Of a stretch of DNA of 64,000 nt, positions 42,585 to 51,967 are shown in pieces. The stretch spans positions 1 through 64,000 of the forward strand of contig NZ_LMUW01000022.1 of the NCBI RefSeq assembly GCF_009765735.1, given 5' to 3'. The stretch comes from Xenophilus sp. L33. GTDB lineage: Bacteria > Pseudomonadota > Gammaproteobacteria > Burkholderiales > Burkholderiaceae_C. Positions within the stretch are counted from its first letter, which is position 1, and every line of letters starts with the position of its first letter. Made by a program: the position numbers and the translations under genes. The notes under the pieces were generated by a model. The model saw only the letters and a program-made list of their open reading frames with translations. It searched no databases and was not told where the DNA came from.

Positions 42585-43367
42585 ATGAAAACGCACTTGA
42601 AGTTTGCCAAGAACGACAGCCGGTCTGAGACCTTGCTGGTCTTTCTTCCGGGCGCTTTCCTGAAACCGGAGGAATTCGAACGGGAAGGCTTCGTCGATGC
42701 CGTCCGCGAACGGGACCTGGCAGCCGATGCCCTGTTGGTGGATGCCGACGTTTCCTATTACTACGACCAGACGTTTATCGAGCGTCTGCAACAAGATGTA
42801 TTGAAGCCGCAGCGCGCGCTGGGCTACAAATACATCTGGCTGGTGGGCATTTCGATCGGCGGCTTCGGCGCGCTGATCCATGAATTGGCGACGCCCGGCA
42901 CGGTCGATGGCATCGTGACCCTGGCGCCCTACCTGGGCCGGCGGCCGGTCGGCGCCGAGATCCAGAAGGCCGGCGGCCTGCGCAACTGGACGAAGCCCGA
43001 GGGCCCGCCGCCGGACGCCGAAGTCGACCGCAAGCTCTGGCCCTGGCTGCAGCAATACACCTCGCCGGCCGAGGCCAGCAAGCTCCCTCCGCTCTATCTC
43101 GGCTATGGCCTCGCCGACCGCTTCGCCGCGAACCACCAGCTGCTGGCGGACGCGTTGCCGGCCGGCCACGTGTTCACCACCGAAGGCGGCCACGACTGGC
43201 CGCAATGGTCACGGCTGTGGCGAAAGATGCTGGACGTGCTGCCCTTGCCGGCCCAGGCCGTCGTCGGCGCCGAGGTGCTCGAGGCGGTCGACCTCGCCGA
43301 TGCGGTCAGGCGGCCGGCGCTGGCATCCCCGCTTCGCCCGAGCGCGCCAGCGGCCATCGCGGCTTGA
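42585..43367 (+). CDS. Alpha/beta hydrolase
   Basis: 260 residues from ATG 42585. It shows [15 protein letters not shown] (oxyanion region, about 15-29), the nucleophile elbow GISIGGFG near 88 and GGHDWPQW with the likely catalytic His near 205. Substrate unknown. An in-frame ATG at 42510 lies inside the preceding terminator T run, so the later start is preferred. The last 20 codons overlap the 3' end of tsaD on the other strand by 62 bp, and the final 30 residues look like non-family extension. Confidence 0.82.
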
Positions 43368-44364
43368 CGTCGAAGGCGTAGCGCTCGCTCGCCGCCTCGA
43401 TGCCGGCTTGCAGGCGCATCGCGCCGGCCATCGCGATCATCGCGCCGTTGTCGGTGCACAGCGCCAGTTCCGGGTAGTGCACGCGCACACCGCGGCGCGC
43501 GCAGGCGGCATCCAGCTGCTCCCGCAGCAGGCGGTTGGCGCCGACACCGCCGGCCACCACCAGCCGGTCGAGGCCGGTCTGGTCGAGCGCCATCAGCGAC
43601 TTCTTCAACAGCACCTCGACGATCGCGGCCTGGGTCGAGGCCGCGAGGTCGGGCTTGCGCGCCTCCAGCTGGTCGCCGAGCTTGCGGGCCTGGGTCAGCA
43701 CCGCCGTCTTCAGGCCGGCGAAGGAGAAGTCGAGGTTGCCGCTGTGCAGCAGCGGCCGCGGCAGCTTGAAGGCGGCGCCGTCGCCCTGTTCGGCGAGCTT
43801 CGCCAGCCAGGGGCCGCCGGGGTACGGCAGGCCCATCAGCTTGGCGCTCTTGTCGAAGGCTTCGCCGGCCGCGTCGTCGATGGTCTCGCCCAGCAGTTCG
43901 TAGCGGCCGACGCCGTCGACCCGCATCAGCTGGGTGTGGCCGCCCGAGACCAGCAGGGCCACGAACGGGAATTCGGGCGGGTCGGCGCTCAGGAAGGGCG
44001 ACAGCAGGTGCCCTTCGAGGTGATGCACGCCGAGCACCGGCTTGCCCAGCGCGGCGGCCAGCGCGCAGGCGACGCCGGCGCCGACCAGCAGCGCGCCGGC
44101 CAGGCCGGGGCCGCGGGTGTAGGCGACCACGTCGACCGCTTCCAGGCCGCGCGCGGCCTGCGCCAGCACCGCTTCGGTCAGCGGCAGCACGCGGCGGATG
44201 TGGTCGCGGCTGGCCAGCTCCGGCACCACGCCGCCGTAGGCCTGGTGCATCGCGATCTGGCTGTGCAGCGCATGCGCGGCCAGCCGCGGCAGGCCGGTGG
44301 CGCCGCTCTCGACCAGCGCCACGCCGGTCTCGTCGCAGGACGATTCGATTCCCAATACAAGCAT
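43306..44364 (-). CDS. tsaD: tRNA N6-threonylcarbamoyladenosine transferase TsaD
   Basis: 352 residues from ATG 44364. ASKHA-fold enzyme with [12 protein letters not shown] (about 4-15), metal ligands HHLEGH (about 110-115) and the nucleotide loop SGGHTQLM near 138. Transfers threonylcarbamoyl from TC-AMP to A37 of ANN-decoding tRNAs with TsaB/TsaE. An upstream ATG (44439) would add 25 residues not found in the family. Convergent overlap of 62 bp with the hydrolase gene. Confidence 0.96.
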
Positions 44365-44440
44365 CCGGCGAGTGTAGGTGGCGCCCGATCGCCGGGACTT
44401 CGCCAGGGCATGGATGTTGCTGCGAGCCTTGTACCCCACG

Positions 44441-45721
44441 ATGAAATCCGGATTGAGCTTCCTGGTCAGCGCCTTGCGCTGCGAAATCGACGAGCTGGAT
44501 CAGCTCGCGCGGACCAGCGAGCTGGTCGGGACCATCGGCCGGCTGGTGCATGCGCTGCAGCGCGAGCGCGGCATCTCGAACGTGCTCTTGGGCTCGCGCG
44601 GCCAGCGCTTCGCCGCCCAGCGCGACGCGCAGATCGCCGATTCGCTGCAGCTGGAGGACGCCGTGCGGCAGGCCTTCGACCAGCTGGAATCGGAGGCGCC
44701 GCGCATCGGCAACGGCGCGCGGCTCTTCAGCCGGATCGCCTGGGTGCTCCCGGGCCTGGGTGCGCTGCCTGAACTGCGCCGGCGCATCGGCGCGCTGGCG
44801 CTCGACCCGGCCGCCTCGACCGCCGCCTTCGTCAAGCTGATCGCCGGGCTGCTGGCGGTGGTCTTCGAGGCGGCCGACGGCGCGACCGATCCCGAGATCT
44901 CGCGCCGGCTGGTGGCGCTCTTCAACTTCATGCAGGGCAAGGAATTCGCGGGCCAGGAGCGCGCCTGCGGCGCCGCCGCCTTCGCCTCGGGGCGCAACGA
45001 CGAAGCGCGCCGCGAGCAATGGCTGCACCTGATCGATTCGCAGGAGCACTGCTTCCAGCTCTTCACCGATTTCGCGGAACCGGCGCTGGGCACGCTCTGG
45101 CGTTCGATCCAGCCTTCGGCGCAGCTGGCCGAGCTGGAGCGGCTGCGCCGCATCGCCTGCGCCGCGCCGGCCGGTGTCGCGCTCGACACCGAGCTGAGCC
45201 AGCGCTGGTTCGACTGCTCGAGCGAGCGCATCGATGCGATGCAAGCGGTCGAGGAGCGGCTGGCGGACGGTTTGCGCACGCTCTGCGAAGAGAAGATCGC
45301 GCAGGCCCGCACCGAGCTGCAGGTGCACGAGGCCTTGCTGGCCGAGCTGGACGGCGCGACGGGCACGCCGCCGACCGCTTTCCTCGACGAACCCGCCGCC
45401 GCCGACCCGGCGCCCTCGCCCGCCGCCGGCGCCGCGCCCTACGGCCGGCAGCTCGAACGCTCGATCCTGGAGATGGTGCGCGAGCAGTCGCGCCGCCTGC
45501 AGAGCATGGGCGACGAACTGGAGACGGTGCGCGCCGCGCTCAACGAGCGCAAGACGGTGGAGCGCGCCAAGGGCCTCCTGATGGCGCACCGGCGCATCAC
45601 CGAGGAAGAGGCGCACAAGATGCTGCGCCAGACCGCGATGAACCAGAACCGGCGCCTGATCGACGTCGCCGAGTCGGTGCTGGCGATGGCGGAATACCTG
45701 CCGGCCGGCGGCCCGGGCTGA
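44441..45721 (+). CDS. Nitrate/nitrite-sensing NIT domain plus ANTAR antiterminator (NasR-like)
   Basis: 426 residues. The N-terminal part (about 1-300) is all-helical with the NIT signature [17 protein letters not shown] (about 29-45), the dimeric nitrate/nitrite-sensing domain. The C-terminal ANTAR domain (about 358-420) has [16 protein letters not shown] and [20 protein letters not shown], the RNA-binding three-helix unit of NasR, AmiR and EutV. Start at 44441 fits the family; 44378 is an alternative. In Klebsiella NasR, nitrate binding lets ANTAR bind leader RNA and prevent termination. The 289-nt structured leader directly downstream is the obvious target. Confidence 0.9.
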
Positions 45722-45882
45722 GTGCATCGCGTGCGGGAATGGTGCGTCGCCGAGCGGCGGCTTCGCATCGCCGAAGTCGCTCGATGAAGGCTTCGAGGCG
45801 GTCGCCAGTCGATTCGCTGCTCCTCTATCGATAGCAATCGAAGGCGGGCACGCCGCTTGCAACGAATGGCCGACAGGCAGGC

Positions 45883-45902
45883 GGCATCCAAAGGCGGGTG
45901 CC
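45883..45902 (+). promoter_or_regulatory. Six-base-loop hairpin with A1 and G4 (ANTAR-type RNA motif)
   Basis: GGCATCC (45883-45889) pairs fully with GGGTGCC (45896-45902), one U-G pair, closing the loop AAAGGC. The loop has A at position 1 and G at position 4, the two bases conserved in RNA hairpins bound by ANTAR domains. It ends 15 nt before the terminator. Known targets have a pair of such hairpins; only this one is clean here. Confidence 0.65.
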
Positions 45903-45917
45903 TCGAGCCGAACGGAC

Positions 45918-45984
45918 AAAGGCGTCCTCGCCCACGCGGCGCTCGAAGACTTCGAGCCCGCGCGCGGCGAGGACGCCTTTTCTT
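45918..45984 (+). terminator. Strong terminator hairpin between the ANTAR gene and globin
   Basis: AAAGGCGTCCTCGCC (45918-45932) pairs perfectly with GGCGAGGACGCCTTT (45966-45980), and GCTCGAA/TTCGAGC (45941-45947 / 45951-45957) forms an inner stem. TTTTCTTGTTT follows. It ends about 26 nt before the globin start, so it can block the operon unless antiterminated. CTCGAGCC just after the A1/G4 hairpin resembles the inner right arm and could compete for pairing. Confidence 0.85.
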
Positions 45985-46010
45985 GTTTCCACGTTGAAAA
46001 GGAACACCGC

Positions 46011-46427
46011 ATGAACGCCACCCAGATCGCGCTGGTTCGCTCCAGCTTCGCAAAGGTCGAGCCGATCGCCGAGCAGGCCGCCGCCATCTTCTACGACCGC
46101 CTGTTCGAGCTGGCGCCGCAGGTGCGCGCGCTCTTCAAGGGCGACATGAAGGAACAGGGCCGCAAGCTGATGGCGATGCTGCGCACCATCACCCTGAAGC
46201 TCGACGACCTCGACACGCTGGTGCCCGCGGCGCAGGGACTGGCACGCCGCCACGTGGCCTACGGCGCGAAGCCCGAGCACTACGCGGTGGTCGGGCAGGC
46301 CCTGCTCGACACGCTGGCCAAGGGCCTCGGCGACGGCTTCAAGCCGGAGGTGCGCGAGGCCTGGACGACGGCCTACGGGCTGCTGTCGAAGGTGATGATC
46401 GACGCGGCCGCGGCGGAAGCGGCCTGA
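46011..46427 (+). CDS. Single-domain bacterial globin
   Basis: 138 residues with a full globin fold similar to the haem domain of flavohaemoglobins (FYDRLFELAPQVRALF at about 27-42; RRHVAYGAKPEHYAVVG at about 79-95, with probable proximal His at 81). No FAD/NAD reductase domain follows. Likely binds O2 or NO; NO scavenging or a haem-sensor role would match the nitrate/nitrite-sensing regulator upstream. Good ribosome site AAGGA. First gene after the attenuator-like leader. Confidence 0.9.
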   Translation: MNATQIALVRSSFAKVEPIAEQAAAIFYDRLFELAPQVRALFKGDMKEQGRKLMAMLRTITLKLDDLDTLVPAAQGLARRHVAYGAKPEHYAVVGQALLDTLAKGLGDGFKPEVREAWTTAYGLLSKVMIDAAAAEAA

Positions 46428-46481
46428 GCCATCGGCCGCCCGCAGCCATGGCCTTCGGCCATGCGGGACAATCCGCCACCC

Positions 46482-47414
46482 ATGGGAATCAGCCACTACA
46501 TCAAGGAAATCGGCCGCGGCGCCCGCGGCGCGAAGCCGCTCGACCGGGCGCAGGCCTCGGACCTCTTCGGCCAGGTGCTCGACGGCAGCGTGACCGACCT
46601 CGAGGTCGGCGCCTTCTGCCTGGCGATGCGCATCAAGGGCGAGACGCCCGAAGAGCTGGCCGGCTTCCTCGACGCGACCCATGCCCGGCTGCACCGCTTC
46701 CCCGCCACCGCGCGGCCGCTGGTGGTGCTGCCGAGCTACAACGGCGCGCGCCGGCTGCCGGTGCTGACGCCGCTGCTGGCGTTGCTGCTGGCCCGCGAAG
46801 GGCTGCCGGTGCTGGTGCACGGCGCGGCCACCGAGTCGAGCCGGGTGCTGGCCTCCAGCGTGCTGGCGGCGCTCGACGTGCCGCCGCTCGCGGCGGTGCG
46901 GCCGCTGGCCGACGGCGAACTGGTCTTCGCGCCCACCGAGCTGCTCAGCCCCGGCCTCAAGCGCCTGCTCGACGTGCGCCGCGTGGTGGGGCTCCGCAAC
47001 CCGGGCCACAGCGTGGTCAAGCTGATGCAGCCGGCCGCAGGCGCCTCGGTGGTGGTCGGCAGCTACACCCATCCCGAATACGCGCAGTCGATGGCCGCCA
47101 CCTTCGCGCTGATGGGCACGACCGCCCTGCTCTCGCGCGGCCTCGAAGGCGAGAGCGCGGCCGATCCGCGGCGCAACGCGCAGGTCGACGGCTTCGTGCG
47201 CGGCGAGCGCGTGACCCTGCAGGCCCGCCAACCCGGCACGCTCGACGAGGTGCCCGGCCTGCCGCAGCAGATCGACGTCGCCACCACCGCCGACTACACC
47301 CGGCGCGTCCTCTCGGGCGACGCGCCGATCCCCGATGCCATCGCCCAGCAGGTCGCGCACGTGGTGCGGCTGGCCCGGCTGGCGCAAGAACCTTCCCCGG
47401 CGCACAGCCCATGA
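46482..47414 (+). CDS. YbiB-type glycosyltransferase-fold protein (TrpD2 family)
   Basis: 310 residues, the fold of anthranilate phosphoribosyltransferase: MGISHYIKEIGRGARGAKPL at the start, VLPSYNGARRLPVLTPLLALL near 83-103, LLVHG-like and VGLRNPGHSVVKLM near 172-185. The YbiB/TrpD2 group binds DNA or RNA rather than anthranilate, and is often found in nitrate assimilation clusters of Burkholderiales. Start at 46482 is preferred over 46461. Its stop overlaps the cobA start (ATGA), so it is coupled with siroheme synthesis. Confidence 0.82.
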   Translation: MGISHYIKEIGRGARGAKPLDRAQASDLFGQVLDGSVTDLEVGAFCLAMRIKGETPEELAGFLDATHARLHRFPATARPLVVLPSYNGARRLPVLTPLLALLLAREGLPVLVHGAATESSRVLASSVLAALDVPPLAAVRPLADGELVFAPTELLSPGLKRLLDVRRVVGLRNPGHSVVKLMQPAAGASVVVGSYTHPEYAQSMAATFALMGTTALLSRGLEGESAADPRRNAQVDGFVRGERVTLQARQPGTLDEVPGLPQQIDVATTADYTRRVLSGDAPIPDAIAQQVAHVVRLARLAQEPSPAHSP

Positions 47415-48211
47415 GCGACTCCATGAATGCCTCCTCCCAGCGCGGCAGCTGCACCCTCGTCGGTGCCGGCCCCGGCGACCCCGAACTGCTGACCCTCAAG
47501 GCCGTCAAGGCGATCCAGGCGGCCACCGTGCTGCTGGTCGACGACCTGGTCGGCGACGACATCCTGGCCTACGCGCGGCCCGGCGCGCGCATCGTGCACG
47601 TCGGCAAGCGCGGCGGTTGCCGCAGCACGCCGCAGGCCTTCATCGAGCGGCTGATGATCTCGGCGGTGCAGGAAGGCGAGACCGTCGTGCGCCTGAAGGG
47701 CGGCGATCCCTTCATCTTCGGCCGCGGCGGCGAGGAAGTGGAGCACCTGCGCGCCGCCGGCATCGAGGCCCGCGTGGTCAACGGCATCACCGCCGGGCTG
47801 GCGGCGGTCAGCGCGCTCGGGGTGCCGCTCACCCACCGCGACCATGCGCAAGGCGTGCTCTTCGTCACCGGCCATGCCAAGACCGGCGAGGCCTCTTCGG
47901 AGCGGGCCACCGACTGGCGGCAGCTGGCCGCCACCGCCCGCGATGCCCGCCTGACCCTGGTGATCTACATGGGCGTCACCGGCGTCGCGCACATCCAGGA
48001 CGAACTGCTGCACGGGCTGGCCGGCGAGACGCCGGTGGCCGTGATCCAGCACGCCAGCCTGCCGCAGCAGCGCCACGTCGCGACCACCCTGGCGCGCTTG
48101 CGCACCGACCTGGCGGCGGCCGGCATGGCCAGCCCGGCGATCATCGTGGTCGGCGACGTGCTGCGCGGCATGGCCGCGGCCGAGGCCTCGCCGACCCGCT
48201 TCGGCACCTGA
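47411..48211 (+). CDS. cobA: Uroporphyrinogen-III C-methyltransferase (siroheme branch)
   Basis: 266 residues, tetrapyrrole methylase fold. Motifs VGAGPGDPELLTLKAVKAI (about 17-35), LVDDLV near 44-49 and VRLKGGDPFIFGRGGEEVEH (about 95-114) bind SAM and substrate. Methylates C2 and C7 of uroporphyrinogen III to precorrin-2, precursor of siroheme for nitrite and sulfite reductases. It lacks a CysG oxidase/ferrochelatase domain. Fourth gene of the ANTAR-leader-globin-ybiB group. Stop shares a base with the next start (TGATG). Confidence 0.95.
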   Translation: MSDSMNASSQRGSCTLVGAGPGDPELLTLKAVKAIQAATVLLVDDLVGDDILAYARPGARIVHVGKRGGCRSTPQAFIERLMISAVQEGETVVRLKGGDPFIFGRGGEEVEHLRAAGIEARVVNGITAGLAAVSALGVPLTHRDHAQGVLFVTGHAKTGEASSERATDWRQLAATARDARLTLVIYMGVTGVAHIQDELLHGLAGETPVAVIQHASLPQQRHVATTLARLRTDLAAAGMASPAIIVVGDVLRGMAAAEASPTRFGT

Positions 48212-49431
48212 TGCCGGCCTTCGACAGCTTCGACGCGGTCGTCATCGGCGCCGGCGCCGCCGGCCTCTTCTGCGCCGCGCAGGCCGGCCAGCGCGGCCTC
48301 AAGGTGCTGCTGGTCGACCACTTCGCGCGGGTCGCCGAGAAGATCCGCATCTCGGGCGGCGGCCGCGCCAACTTCACCAACCGCGAGCTGGACGTGCGGG
48401 CGCCGCAGCGGCACTTCATCGGCGAGAACCCGAACTTCTGCCGCTCGGCGTTGTCGCGCTACACGCCGCAGCACTTCATCGCGCTGGTGGAAAAGCACGG
48501 CATCGCCTTCCACGAGAAGCACAAGGGCCAGCTCTTCTGCGACGGGTCGGCCCAGCAGCTGATCGACATGCTGCTGGCCGAATGCGCGGCCGGCGGCGTC
48601 ACGCACTGGCAGCCCTGCAAGGTCGGCGAGGTCGCGTTCTCGGCCGAGGACGGCTACCGCGTCGAGACCGAGCGCGGCACCGTGCGCACGCCGCGGCTGG
48701 TGGTCGCGACCGGCGGCCTGTCGATCCCGCAGATCGGCGCCAGCGACTTCGGGCACCGGCTGGCCACGCAGTTCGGCCTGCGGCTGGTGCCGCCGCGGCC
48801 GGCGCTGGTGCCGCTCACCTTCGGCGGCGAGGCCTGGGCGCCCTATGCCGGCCTGGCCGGCCTGGCCCTGCCGGTTCAGATCGAGACCGGCGCCAGGAAG
48901 GAGCGCACGAGCTTCCTCGAGGACCTGCTGTTCACCCACCGCGGCCTCTCCGGCCCGGCGGTGCTGCAGATCTCCAGCTACTGGCGGCCCGGCGCGCCCC
49001 TCGGCATCGACTTCGCGCCCGGCATCGACATCGCGGCGGCGCTCGCCGAGGCCAAGCAGCGCTCGAGGAAGCGCATCGGCAACGAACTGGCCACGCTGGT
49101 GCCGGCCCGCCTGGCCGAAGCCTGGACCGGCCAGGACCCGGCGCTGCAACGGCCGATCAACGAGGCCGCCGACCGCGCGCTGGCCGCCCTGGCCGAGCGC
49201 ATCGCCCGCTGGCAGATCACGCCGAGCGGCACCGAGGGCTACCGCAAGGCCGAGGTCACCGCCGGCGGCGTCGACACCCGCGAGCTGTCCTCGCAAACGC
49301 TGGAGGCCAGGCAGCAGCCGGGCCTTCATTTCATCGGCGAGGTGGTCGACGTCACCGGCTGGCTCGGCGGCTACAACTTCCAGTGGGCCTGGGCCAGCGC
49401 GCATGCCTGTGCCGAGGCCCTGGCGGCCTGA
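48211..49431 (+). CDS. HI0933/YhiN family FAD-dependent oxidoreductase
   Basis: 406 residues. FAD dinucleotide motif VVIGAGAAGLFCAAQAGQRG (about 10-29), RISGGGRANFTNR (about 45-57) and the late EVTAGGVDTRELSSQTLE and GWLGGYNFQWAWASA segments are diagnostic of the HI0933 family. The reaction is unknown; members reduce or oxidise small molecules. Translationally coupled to cobA by the TGATG overlap, but in this order it is usually next to rpsU, so its link to nitrate regulation may be accidental. Confidence 0.9.
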   Translation: MPAFDSFDAVVIGAGAAGLFCAAQAGQRGLKVLLVDHFARVAEKIRISGGGRANFTNRELDVRAPQRHFIGENPNFCRSALSRYTPQHFIALVEKHGIAFHEKHKGQLFCDGSAQQLIDMLLAECAAGGVTHWQPCKVGEVAFSAEDGYRVETERGTVRTPRLVVATGGLSIPQIGASDFGHRLATQFGLRLVPPRPALVPLTFGGEAWAPYAGLAGLALPVQIETGARKERTSFLEDLLFTHRGLSGPAVLQISSYWRPGAPLGIDFAPGIDIAAALAEAKQRSRKRIGNELATLVPARLAEAWTGQDPALQRPINEAADRALAALAERIARWQITPSGTEGYRKAEVTAGGVDTRELSSQTLEARQQPGLHFIGEVVDVTGWLGGYNFQWAWASAHACAEALAA

Positions 49432-50902: not shown

Positions 50903-51967
50903 CTACCAGTTCACCTCGCGCTCCGGCGTCGCGCTGATGTGGTGGATCGACAGGTCCGCGCCGTCGAATTCGTCTTCCTGCGACAGCCGCAGCCCCAAGG
51001 TCGCCGGCAAGACGCCGTAGACCGCGAAGCCCGCCACCAGCGCCCACACCACACCGTTCGCCACGCCGATCAACTGCGCCCAAAGGTTCACGCCGCCGAT
51101 GCCGCCCAGCGCGCGGCTGCCGAAGATGCCCGCCGCGATGCCGCCCCAGGTGCCGCACAGGCCGTGCAGCGGCCAGACGCCGAGCACGTCGTCGATCTTC
51201 CACTTGTTCTGCACCAGGGTGAACATCCGCACGAAGCTCGCGCCGGCGACGCCGCCGACCACCAGCGCGGCGATCGGGTGCATCAGGTCGGAGCCGGCGC
51301 AGACCGCTACCAGGCCGGCCAGCGGGCCGTTGTAGACGAAGCCCGGGTCGTTGCGGCCGAGCGCCAGGGCCACCAGCGTGCCGCCGACCATCGCCATCAG
51401 CGAATTCACCGCCACCAGGCCGGAGATCTTGTCGATGGTCTGCGCGCTCATCACGTTGAAGCCGAACCAGCCGACGCACAGCACCCATGCGCCCAGCGCC
51501 AGGAACGGGATGTTCGACGGCGGATGCGCGCTCAGCGAGCCGTCGCCGCGGTAGCGGTTGCGCCGCGCGCCCAGCAGCAGCACCGCGGGCAGCGCCAGCC
51601 AGCCGCCCATCGCGTGCACCACCACCGAGCCGGCGAAGTCGTGGAATTCGTTGCCGGTCAGCCGCACCAGCCAGTCCTGGATGCCGAAGGCCCGGTTCCA
51701 GGCGATGCCCTCGTAGAGGGGGTAGACGAAGCCGACGATCACCGCGGTGGCGATCAGCTGCGGCCAGAACTTGGCCCGCTCCGCGATGCCGCCCGAGATG
51801 ATCGCCGGGATCGCCGCCGCGAAGGTCAGGAGGAAGAAGAAGCGCACCAGCTCGAAGCCGCTGCCGAGCGACAGCTCGCTCGCGCTGACGAAGAAGTGCG
51901 TGCCGTAGGCGACGCCGAAGCCCACCAGGAAGTAGGCGATGGTCGAGACCTTGGTGGCAATTTCGCC
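50903..51967 (-). pseudogene. amt: Ammonium transporter Amt, N-terminus missing
   Basis: Amt-family coding similarity begins at about 51967 (EIATKVSTIAYFLVGFGVAY) directly after an in-frame TGA at 51970-51968. Normal Amt proteins have about 45 more residues upstream, covering the first membrane helix; none of the upstream 80 nt codes for these in this frame or the next. The rest is intact through HDFAGSVVVHAMGG and PLHGLCGTWGGIAAG to the C-terminus, about 340 codons from a GTG at 51925. Probably a 5'-deleted remnant left by a rearrangement next to pmbA, unless it is an assembly fault. Confidence 0.75.

Follow-up and report, generated by a model that had tools for sequence, protein, structure and literature searches.

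A NasR-like NIT-ANTAR regulator and a predicted antitermination leader directly upstream of globin, ybiB and cobA genes in Xenophilus sp. L33

The window analysed here (the whole stretch of 64,000 nucleotides (nt) from Xenophilus sp. L33) is part of an 89-kb contig (C101) of a 6.9-Mb draft genome. It contains the gene for a NasR-like NIT-ANTAR regulator of 426 amino acids, designated ANTAR1 (44441..45721, + strand), followed by an intergenic stretch of 289 nt (45722-46010) and, on the same strand, by genes for a single-domain globin (138 amino acids, 46011..46427), a TrpD-like DNA-binding protein of the YbiB family (46482..47414) and the uroporphyrinogen-III C-methyltransferase CobA involved in siroheme formation (47411..48211). 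The intergenic stretch carries a predicted sigma-54 promoter, two hairpins resembling ANTAR targets and an intrinsic terminator. A preliminary description, made from the letters alone, had listed the NIT-ANTAR gene, the 289-nt gap with a strong terminator, globin, ybiB and cobA, and all of them were recovered with Pfam, NCBIfam/TIGR profiles and RNA folding.

ANTAR1 possesses the Pfam domains NIT (E=3.1e-53) and ANTAR (E=4.2e-20), and the Protein Data Bank (PDB) entry 4akk ("nitrate regulatory protein") aligns with it over both stretches (phmmer, E=2.7e-51). This entry is NasR, in which substitution of R340, R366 and N373 abolished RNA binding (PMC7496416). ANTAR1 has R, R and N at these positions, as counted by hand in the ungapped ANTAR alignment to 4akk; the numbering offset was likewise derived by hand, from the residues named in that paper. 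Of the interdomain pairs of NasR, R193-E359 is kept, while E191 is replaced by A and W362 by H. The reading frame is intact and 75-80% identical to its six nearest relatives. With a NIT sensor, an ANTAR output domain and the RNA-binding residues, ANTAR1 is predicted to be a NIT-ANTAR protein of the NasR type.

The sigma-54 promoter, GGGCACGCCGCTTGCA, is predicted at 45846..45861 (+ strand), with a transcription start near 45872. It agrees with 11 of 12 positions of the general sigma-54 consensus used for scoring; nowhere else in the 64 kb, on either strand, are 11 or more positions matched. As it lies inside the 289-nt stretch, the transcribed leader probably comprises only ~139 nt (45872-46010), preceded by the promoter and upstream DNA; the 289 nt of the preliminary description thus hold for the intergenic stretch but probably not for the leader RNA. 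Hairpin P1, GGCATCC[AAAGGC]GGGTGCC (45883..45902, + strand), is present in the predicted folds, and 11 nt separate it from hairpin P2, GGAC[AAAGGC]GTCC (45914..45927, + strand; -4.0 kcal/mol). Both have hexaloops with A at position 1 and G at position 4 and a C:G closing pair, the features of ANTAR targets (PMC3369931, PMC7496416). The very strong intrinsic terminator (45918..45981, + strand; -52.7 kcal/mol) is followed by a T-rich tail. Its 5' arm consists of the loop and the 3' arm of P2, and therefore P2 and the terminator are mutually exclusive. Indeed, the predicted 139-nt RNA folds into P1 and the terminator (-76.9 kcal/mol, z -6.3), and when this RNA is truncated at 45932, ahead of the 3' arm of the terminator, it folds into P1 and P2 (z -1.6). 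In the real window there is a single dual hexaloop overlapped by a terminator, compared with none in 100 dinucleotide shuffles of the 64 kb, and chance hairpins were therefore rejected as an explanation; note that dual hexaloops without the terminator condition are not rare (two in the real sequence, a mean of 0.41 in the shuffles).

Thirty leaders were aligned, i.e., that of the window, 27 first leaders of relatives and two second leaders (genomes G022 and G001). The leader of locus L051, whose P1 stem is too short for the script, was added by hand, and the start of that of L037 was moved by hand to the second P1 candidate. A sigma-54-like site scoring 10-12 is found in each of the 29 other leaders (30/30 including the window), and the P2 stem is invariant in all 30. 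P1 shows covariation: both sides of the pair are changed in six cells, a number that none of 500 shuffles attains, and these cells belong to two base pairs, as many as are attained by 9 of 500 shuffles. The terminator arms are paired in 97.3% of the cells. With a cut-off of E<=0.01, a covariance model built from 28 first leaders (the two second leaders, misaligned in P1, were excluded) has a match in 97 of the 101 same-genus (Variovorax) genomes. Since the 97 include the 28 genomes that supplied the model, the independent figure is 69 of 73. The conserved hairpins in orthologous leaders that had been proposed as a check of the regulatory hypothesis were thus found. Among 299 same-family genomes, 92 match the model (four of them same-genus). 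The genome of the window has one strong site (45878-45928, E=3.6e-13), located before the globin gene, the next best having E=0.086. Comparing leader matches (E<=1e-4) with NIT domains across the 299 family genomes gave 25 genomes with both, 21 with the leader only and 108 with NIT only (p=0.15). This co-occurrence is not significant, so not every leader has a NIT protein as its partner; ANTAR proteins of other types may act on similar leaders, and NIT domains occur in other proteins, too. The second leaders of G022 (L054, 5606-5717) and G001 (L040, 12846-12957) are likewise of the ANTAR type, have a sigma-54 site of their own and are located directly before a nirB or NirB-like gene.

A scan of Rfam at gathering thresholds gave no match in the window and none in nine relatives' loci. 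With relaxed thresholds, the window leader matches RF03032 ("narK RNA") over all 72 positions with 30.1 bits; the gathering score of 43.2 is reached neither by it nor by any of the nine relatives' loci. The RF03032 consensus contains a sigma-54-like GGCAC...UUGC as well as CC[AACGGC]GG and GAC[AAAGAC]GUC; its annotation in Rfam does not go beyond that of a cis-regulatory element. A search of a sample of 250 genomes from the window's order gave matches at E<=0.001 in 28 genomes, of which three exceeded the gathering score; with the strict filters applied in this search, the genome of the window itself gave none. An ANTAR domain is encoded in the fetched flank of 20 of these 28 loci (L286-L313), and 24 have a sigma-54-like site together with two hexaloops (loose pattern, no shuffle control). 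These data suggest RF03032 to be the target of ANTAR proteins in nitrate-assimilation operons, with part of the model representing sigma-54 promoter DNA. The PMC literature searched, outside of which the founding paper lies, names no narK RNA, narK motif or RF03032. The comparison gives the family a likely identity and makes its mechanism directly testable.

The globin (Pfam Globin, E=5.6e-17) has relatives in the PDB and was aligned with six Variovorax orthologues. A close globin is encoded in 7 of the 101 same-genus genomes including that of the window, the other six being 68-72% identical to it. Residues Y28, F42, Q49, H81 and Y91 are conserved in all seven aligned proteins; by analogy with the Vitreoscilla globin, we take them to be B10, CD1, E7, F8 and G5. 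Consisting of the globin fold alone and carrying these haem-pocket residues, the protein appears to be a single-domain globin of the flavohaemoglobin lineage. In a tree it groups with the six Variovorax operon globins (93/91, just short of the tool's mark for strong support, 95/80), and a foreign insertion unrelated to the operon was rejected on the basis of this grouping, the long branch notwithstanding. Nitric oxide (NO) dioxygenase or NO-detoxifying activity would be expected from the family and from Bjgb of Bradyrhizobium (PMC4724949). A search with the globin alignment was evaluated for the best 80 of 147 loci (flanks up to 8 kb, some contigs being shorter; six are Variovorax). In these 80, an NrtA homologue is found in 46 and an ANTAR protein in 23; nrtA was used here since the "nirB" matches of ~31-49% in globin loci are probably other flavoproteins. 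Canonical dual hexaloops at most 350 nt upstream of the globin were detected by script in one of these 80 loci, L179.

The genes following the globin were assigned by profiles, ybiB by NCBIfam NF006005 (389.5 bits, cut-off 185) and cobA by TIGR01469 (273.6 bits, cut-off 185), the two overlapping by 4 bp. The order globin-ybiB-cobA had been described correctly, but the run continues into a gene for an HI0933/TIGR00275-type flavoprotein (48211..49431, + strand), which overlaps the stop codon of cobA and is probably co-transcribed. Globin and ybiB are separated by 54 nt (46428-46481), and a terminator scan of this gap found none, which is a weak negative, as the same scanner missed the terminator of the leader itself. 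In relatives, an element is visible by eye upstream of ybiB, with tandem GCATAAG/GCATAA ~22 nt apart and then GGACAAT (loci L041, L042, L043, L044, L060, L061, L092 and L094). Of this element, the window keeps only the last part, the GCGGGACAATCC end. On the other side of the locus, tsaD (43306..44439, - strand) is the divergent neighbour of ANTAR1 and served as synteny anchor in relatives. Further downstream, the Pfam match of an ammonium transporter frame (50903-51925, - strand) begins only at profile position 68; its start may be truncated or shifted to another frame.

In relatives, the leader serves a full nitrate-assimilation operon, with ybiB-cobA at its end where the contig reaches that far. 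The gene next after the leader is nrtA in 26 of 28 first leaders, a major facilitator superfamily gene in G012 and the globin gene in the window. The order in G096 and G049 is tsaD (divergent), ANTAR1, leader, nrtA, nrtB, nrtC, globin, a further gene, nirB, nirD, nasA, ybiB, cobA; the further gene encodes a GAF-domain protein in G049 and starts similarly, as judged by eye, in G096 and G052. In G187, a genome of another genus, the order is tsaD, ANTAR1, leader, nrtABC, globin, NirB-like gene, nasA, ybiB, cobA. The globin gene lies between nrtC and nirB in Variovorax G096, G052, G049, G022, G101 and G085, it follows nrtC and precedes a nirB or NirB-like gene in G187, G148 and G280 outside the genus, and the same placing is found in several rhizobial loci. 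Note that several "nirB" matches (Variovorax, G187, G369) cover the N-terminal half only and could belong to NirB-like flavoproteins instead. Leader and globin are located on one contig, ~3.2 kb apart, in four of the six other same-genus globin carriers; in the remaining two they are on different contigs, and nrtC still precedes the globin.

The window shares with the full operons (G096, G049, G052, G022 and G187) ANTAR1, the leader, the globin and tsaD in place, as well as ybiB-cobA with G096, G049 and G187, the contigs of G022 and G052 ending within nirB; the sigma-54 site was checked in the four Variovorax genomes. In the full operons, unlike in the window, nrtABC separates the leader from the globin gene, and the latter is followed by nirB or a NirB-like gene and by nasA (in G022 and G052, only nirB is seen before the contig ends). 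No nitrate transport or reductase genes were found at the locus downstream of the window leader, and the assembly holds no nrtA orthologue (best matches 27-28%). With nrtABC and the reductase genes missing from the locus, globin-ybiB-cobA directly follow the leader, a layout found in 1 of 101 same-genus genomes. The simplest history suggested by these gene orders would involve two deletion events, in which nrtABC was lost on one side of the globin gene and the reductase genes on the other.

We consider it likely that the locus represents the regulatory head of a nitrate-assimilation operon with its nitrate genes removed, and that the NIT-ANTAR leader now directly serves globin, ybiB, cobA and probably the flavoprotein gene. 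RNA polymerase with sigma-54 would start near 45872 and, without signal, halt at the terminator (45918-45981). Binding of nitrate or nitrite by the NIT domain would allow an ANTAR dimer to hold P1 and P2; as P2 would sequester the 5' arm of the terminator, transcription would read through into globin, ybiB and cobA. The globin could then detoxify NO, and CobA could supply siroheme for nitrite reductase. While the gene identities, the RNA elements with their mutually exclusive folds, the conservation and the complete operon in relatives are observed, the nitrate response, RNA binding, read-through and globin function in this locus are what we infer from them. Antitermination by a NIT-ANTAR protein at a leader before the globin, as proposed in the preliminary description, finds strong support in the protein domains, the hexaloops, the exclusive terminator, the conservation and the covariation of P1.

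Several observations weigh against this interpretation. Given the large difference in stability between the terminator and P2 (-52.7 versus -4.0 kcal/mol), antitermination has to take place while the RNA is being transcribed. The P1-P2 fold by itself does not stand out in stability, with 14 of 200 shuffles being as good. The terminator is conserved but shows no compensatory change. The NtrC-like motif GCAC-N7-GTGC occurs without mismatch in the first leaders of 22 of the 27 relatives, and in 20 of these 22 it lies 106-118 nt ahead of the promoter. In the window it is missing from this usual place, which retains a TGGTGC half-site (-106); a 7-of-8 match is located elsewhere (-135). The distance from promoter to P1 is 21 in the window versus 35-42 in the first leaders of relatives (14-21 nt shorter; the two second leaders in G022 and G001 have 20-21), and a small hairpin before P1 (AGACC...GGTCT type), seen by eye in most relatives' first leaders, is missing. 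The shortened segment and the missing hairpin could reflect decay. Besides, the window globin has a long branch (0.38), and ybiB may have retained a promoter of its own. The leader could accordingly be a decaying relic, its switch unregulated or untranscribed, with low basal expression of globin-ybiB-cobA or expression driven by another promoter. The half-lost NtrC-like site and the shortened promoter-to-P1 segment fit with that, as does the model score of 63.5 bits, below that of 84 of the 96 other genomes with a match. However, the sigma-54 -24/-12 elements, both A1/G4 hexaloops, the C:G closing pairs and the long terminator are all intact, and so is the frame of ANTAR1 with its high identity to the nearest relatives; a relic thus seems quite improbable to us.

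Another contig of the assembly, C32 (10.3 kb; L053, 1-10349), carries genes for ANTAR2 (ANTAR and PilJ domains), NarK, a PP2C-kinase fusion, NirB, NirD and NasA. ANTAR1 might act mainly in trans on this cluster, with ybiB-cobA transcribed from their own promoter and the local unit being the globin alone or incidental. The presence of narK, nirB, nirD and nasA on C32 would speak for that, as would the element that relatives conserve ahead of ybiB and whose GCGGGACAATCC end is still present in the window. Yet the leader model found no ANTAR-type leader on C32, nor one elsewhere in the genome better than the match with E=0.086; the short gap between globin and ybiB has no terminator detectable by the (weak) scan, and ybiB, cobA and the flavoprotein gene overlap, all of which makes this alternative unlikely. 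Compared with the NarK of other Variovorax (median identity among those 90%), the C32 NarK is only 67-71% identical, whereas it shares 78-86% identity with its 18 best matches in other genera of the family. It belongs to another subfamily of NarK, and C32 was therefore acquired by transfer or is a contaminant. Its tetranucleotide distance to the window (0.137) falls within that of the window's own chunks (0.11-0.19), and since other Variovorax loci (0.127-0.236, n=7) mostly do so as well, composition does not discriminate here. That C32 is acquired or foreign by its NarK identities, that the draft consists of 224 contigs and that its contamination estimate is 2.27% could also point to an assembly misjoin in a strain that has the full operon. 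This appears very unlikely, as the junctions lie within the 89-kb contig, two misjoins flanking the globin gene would be required and the assembly holds no orthologue of nrtA.

Returning to the leader as a working switch before globin-ybiB-cobA, we tentatively go one step further, to an idea that we ourselves hold to be possible but rather doubtful. The operon may have been stripped to a nitrosative-defence unit triggered by nitrate or nitrite, in which the only recognisable leader of the genome and its NIT-ANTAR protein act on a globin and a siroheme methylase, nitrate reduction proceeds via the acquired narK-nirBD-nasA outside this control, and the re-aiming was achieved by deletion alone. 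Independently of this idea, the locus illustrates how deletion could re-aim a conserved RNA switch at formerly distant members of an operon, and it offers a compact natural test of whether antitermination of the NasR type can serve NO defence alone.

Among the closest known systems are the nasF operon of Klebsiella oxytoca, which is under sigma-54 control and served by NasR, and the narK-bjgb-flp-nasC operon of Bradyrhizobium, served by NasT, a response-regulator type ANTAR protein. Antitermination by NIT-ANTAR proteins of the NasR type is established, and the nasF leader shares with that of the window the NIT-ANTAR partner, the dual hexaloop with A1 and G4, the C:G closing pairs and a second hairpin overlapping the terminator (PMC3369931, PMC7496416). 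In contrast to nasF, the window leader precedes globin-ybiB-cobA rather than transport and reductase genes. In Bradyrhizobium, a single-domain globin is part of a nitrate-assimilation operon whose expression needs NasT (PMC4724949), and hairpins in the narK and bjgb leaders were predicted as NasT targets; deletion of nasT under denitrifying conditions led to higher, not lower, expression of narK-bjgb-flp (PMC6759348). NasT works with the partner NasS (PMC4724949), whereas the window has a NIT-ANTAR protein, and, unlike in Bradyrhizobium, no reductase follows the globin. Judged by title among the matches listed, literature searches on single-domain globins and nitrate assimilation gave nothing beyond PMC4724949, and those on Variovorax and ANTAR nothing relevant. 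Because of the NasT precedent, globin under ANTAR control is not new, and ANTAR-linked control of a globin-containing nitrate operon is already published; the window offers a variant in that a NIT-ANTAR protein is combined with a truncated set of output genes. The word "unusual" in the preliminary description applies to the truncated layout only, as the full operon in relatives has ybiB, cobA and, in a minority, globin as ordinary neighbours.

The layout itself has counterparts elsewhere. The metagenome-assembled genome (MAG) locus L179 of Candidatus Muproteobacteria has an ANTAR gene, a dual hexaloop and a terminator, and then directly the globin gene, as in the window; it differs in that ANTAR follows a response-regulator domain (NasT-like) and that genes for a Pyr_redox/BFD flavoprotein and a cytochrome c3-like protein come after the globin. 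L179 is possibly a globin-flavoprotein NO system under ANTAR control. Within L179 (7145-13881), the cytochrome c3-like protein is followed by an NMT1/NrtA-like protein. In the Acidithiobacillus MAG locus L147, a P2-like hairpin and a terminator are located directly before the globin gene (by eye; model E=0.008). With L179 and L147, globin-first arrangements exist elsewhere as well.

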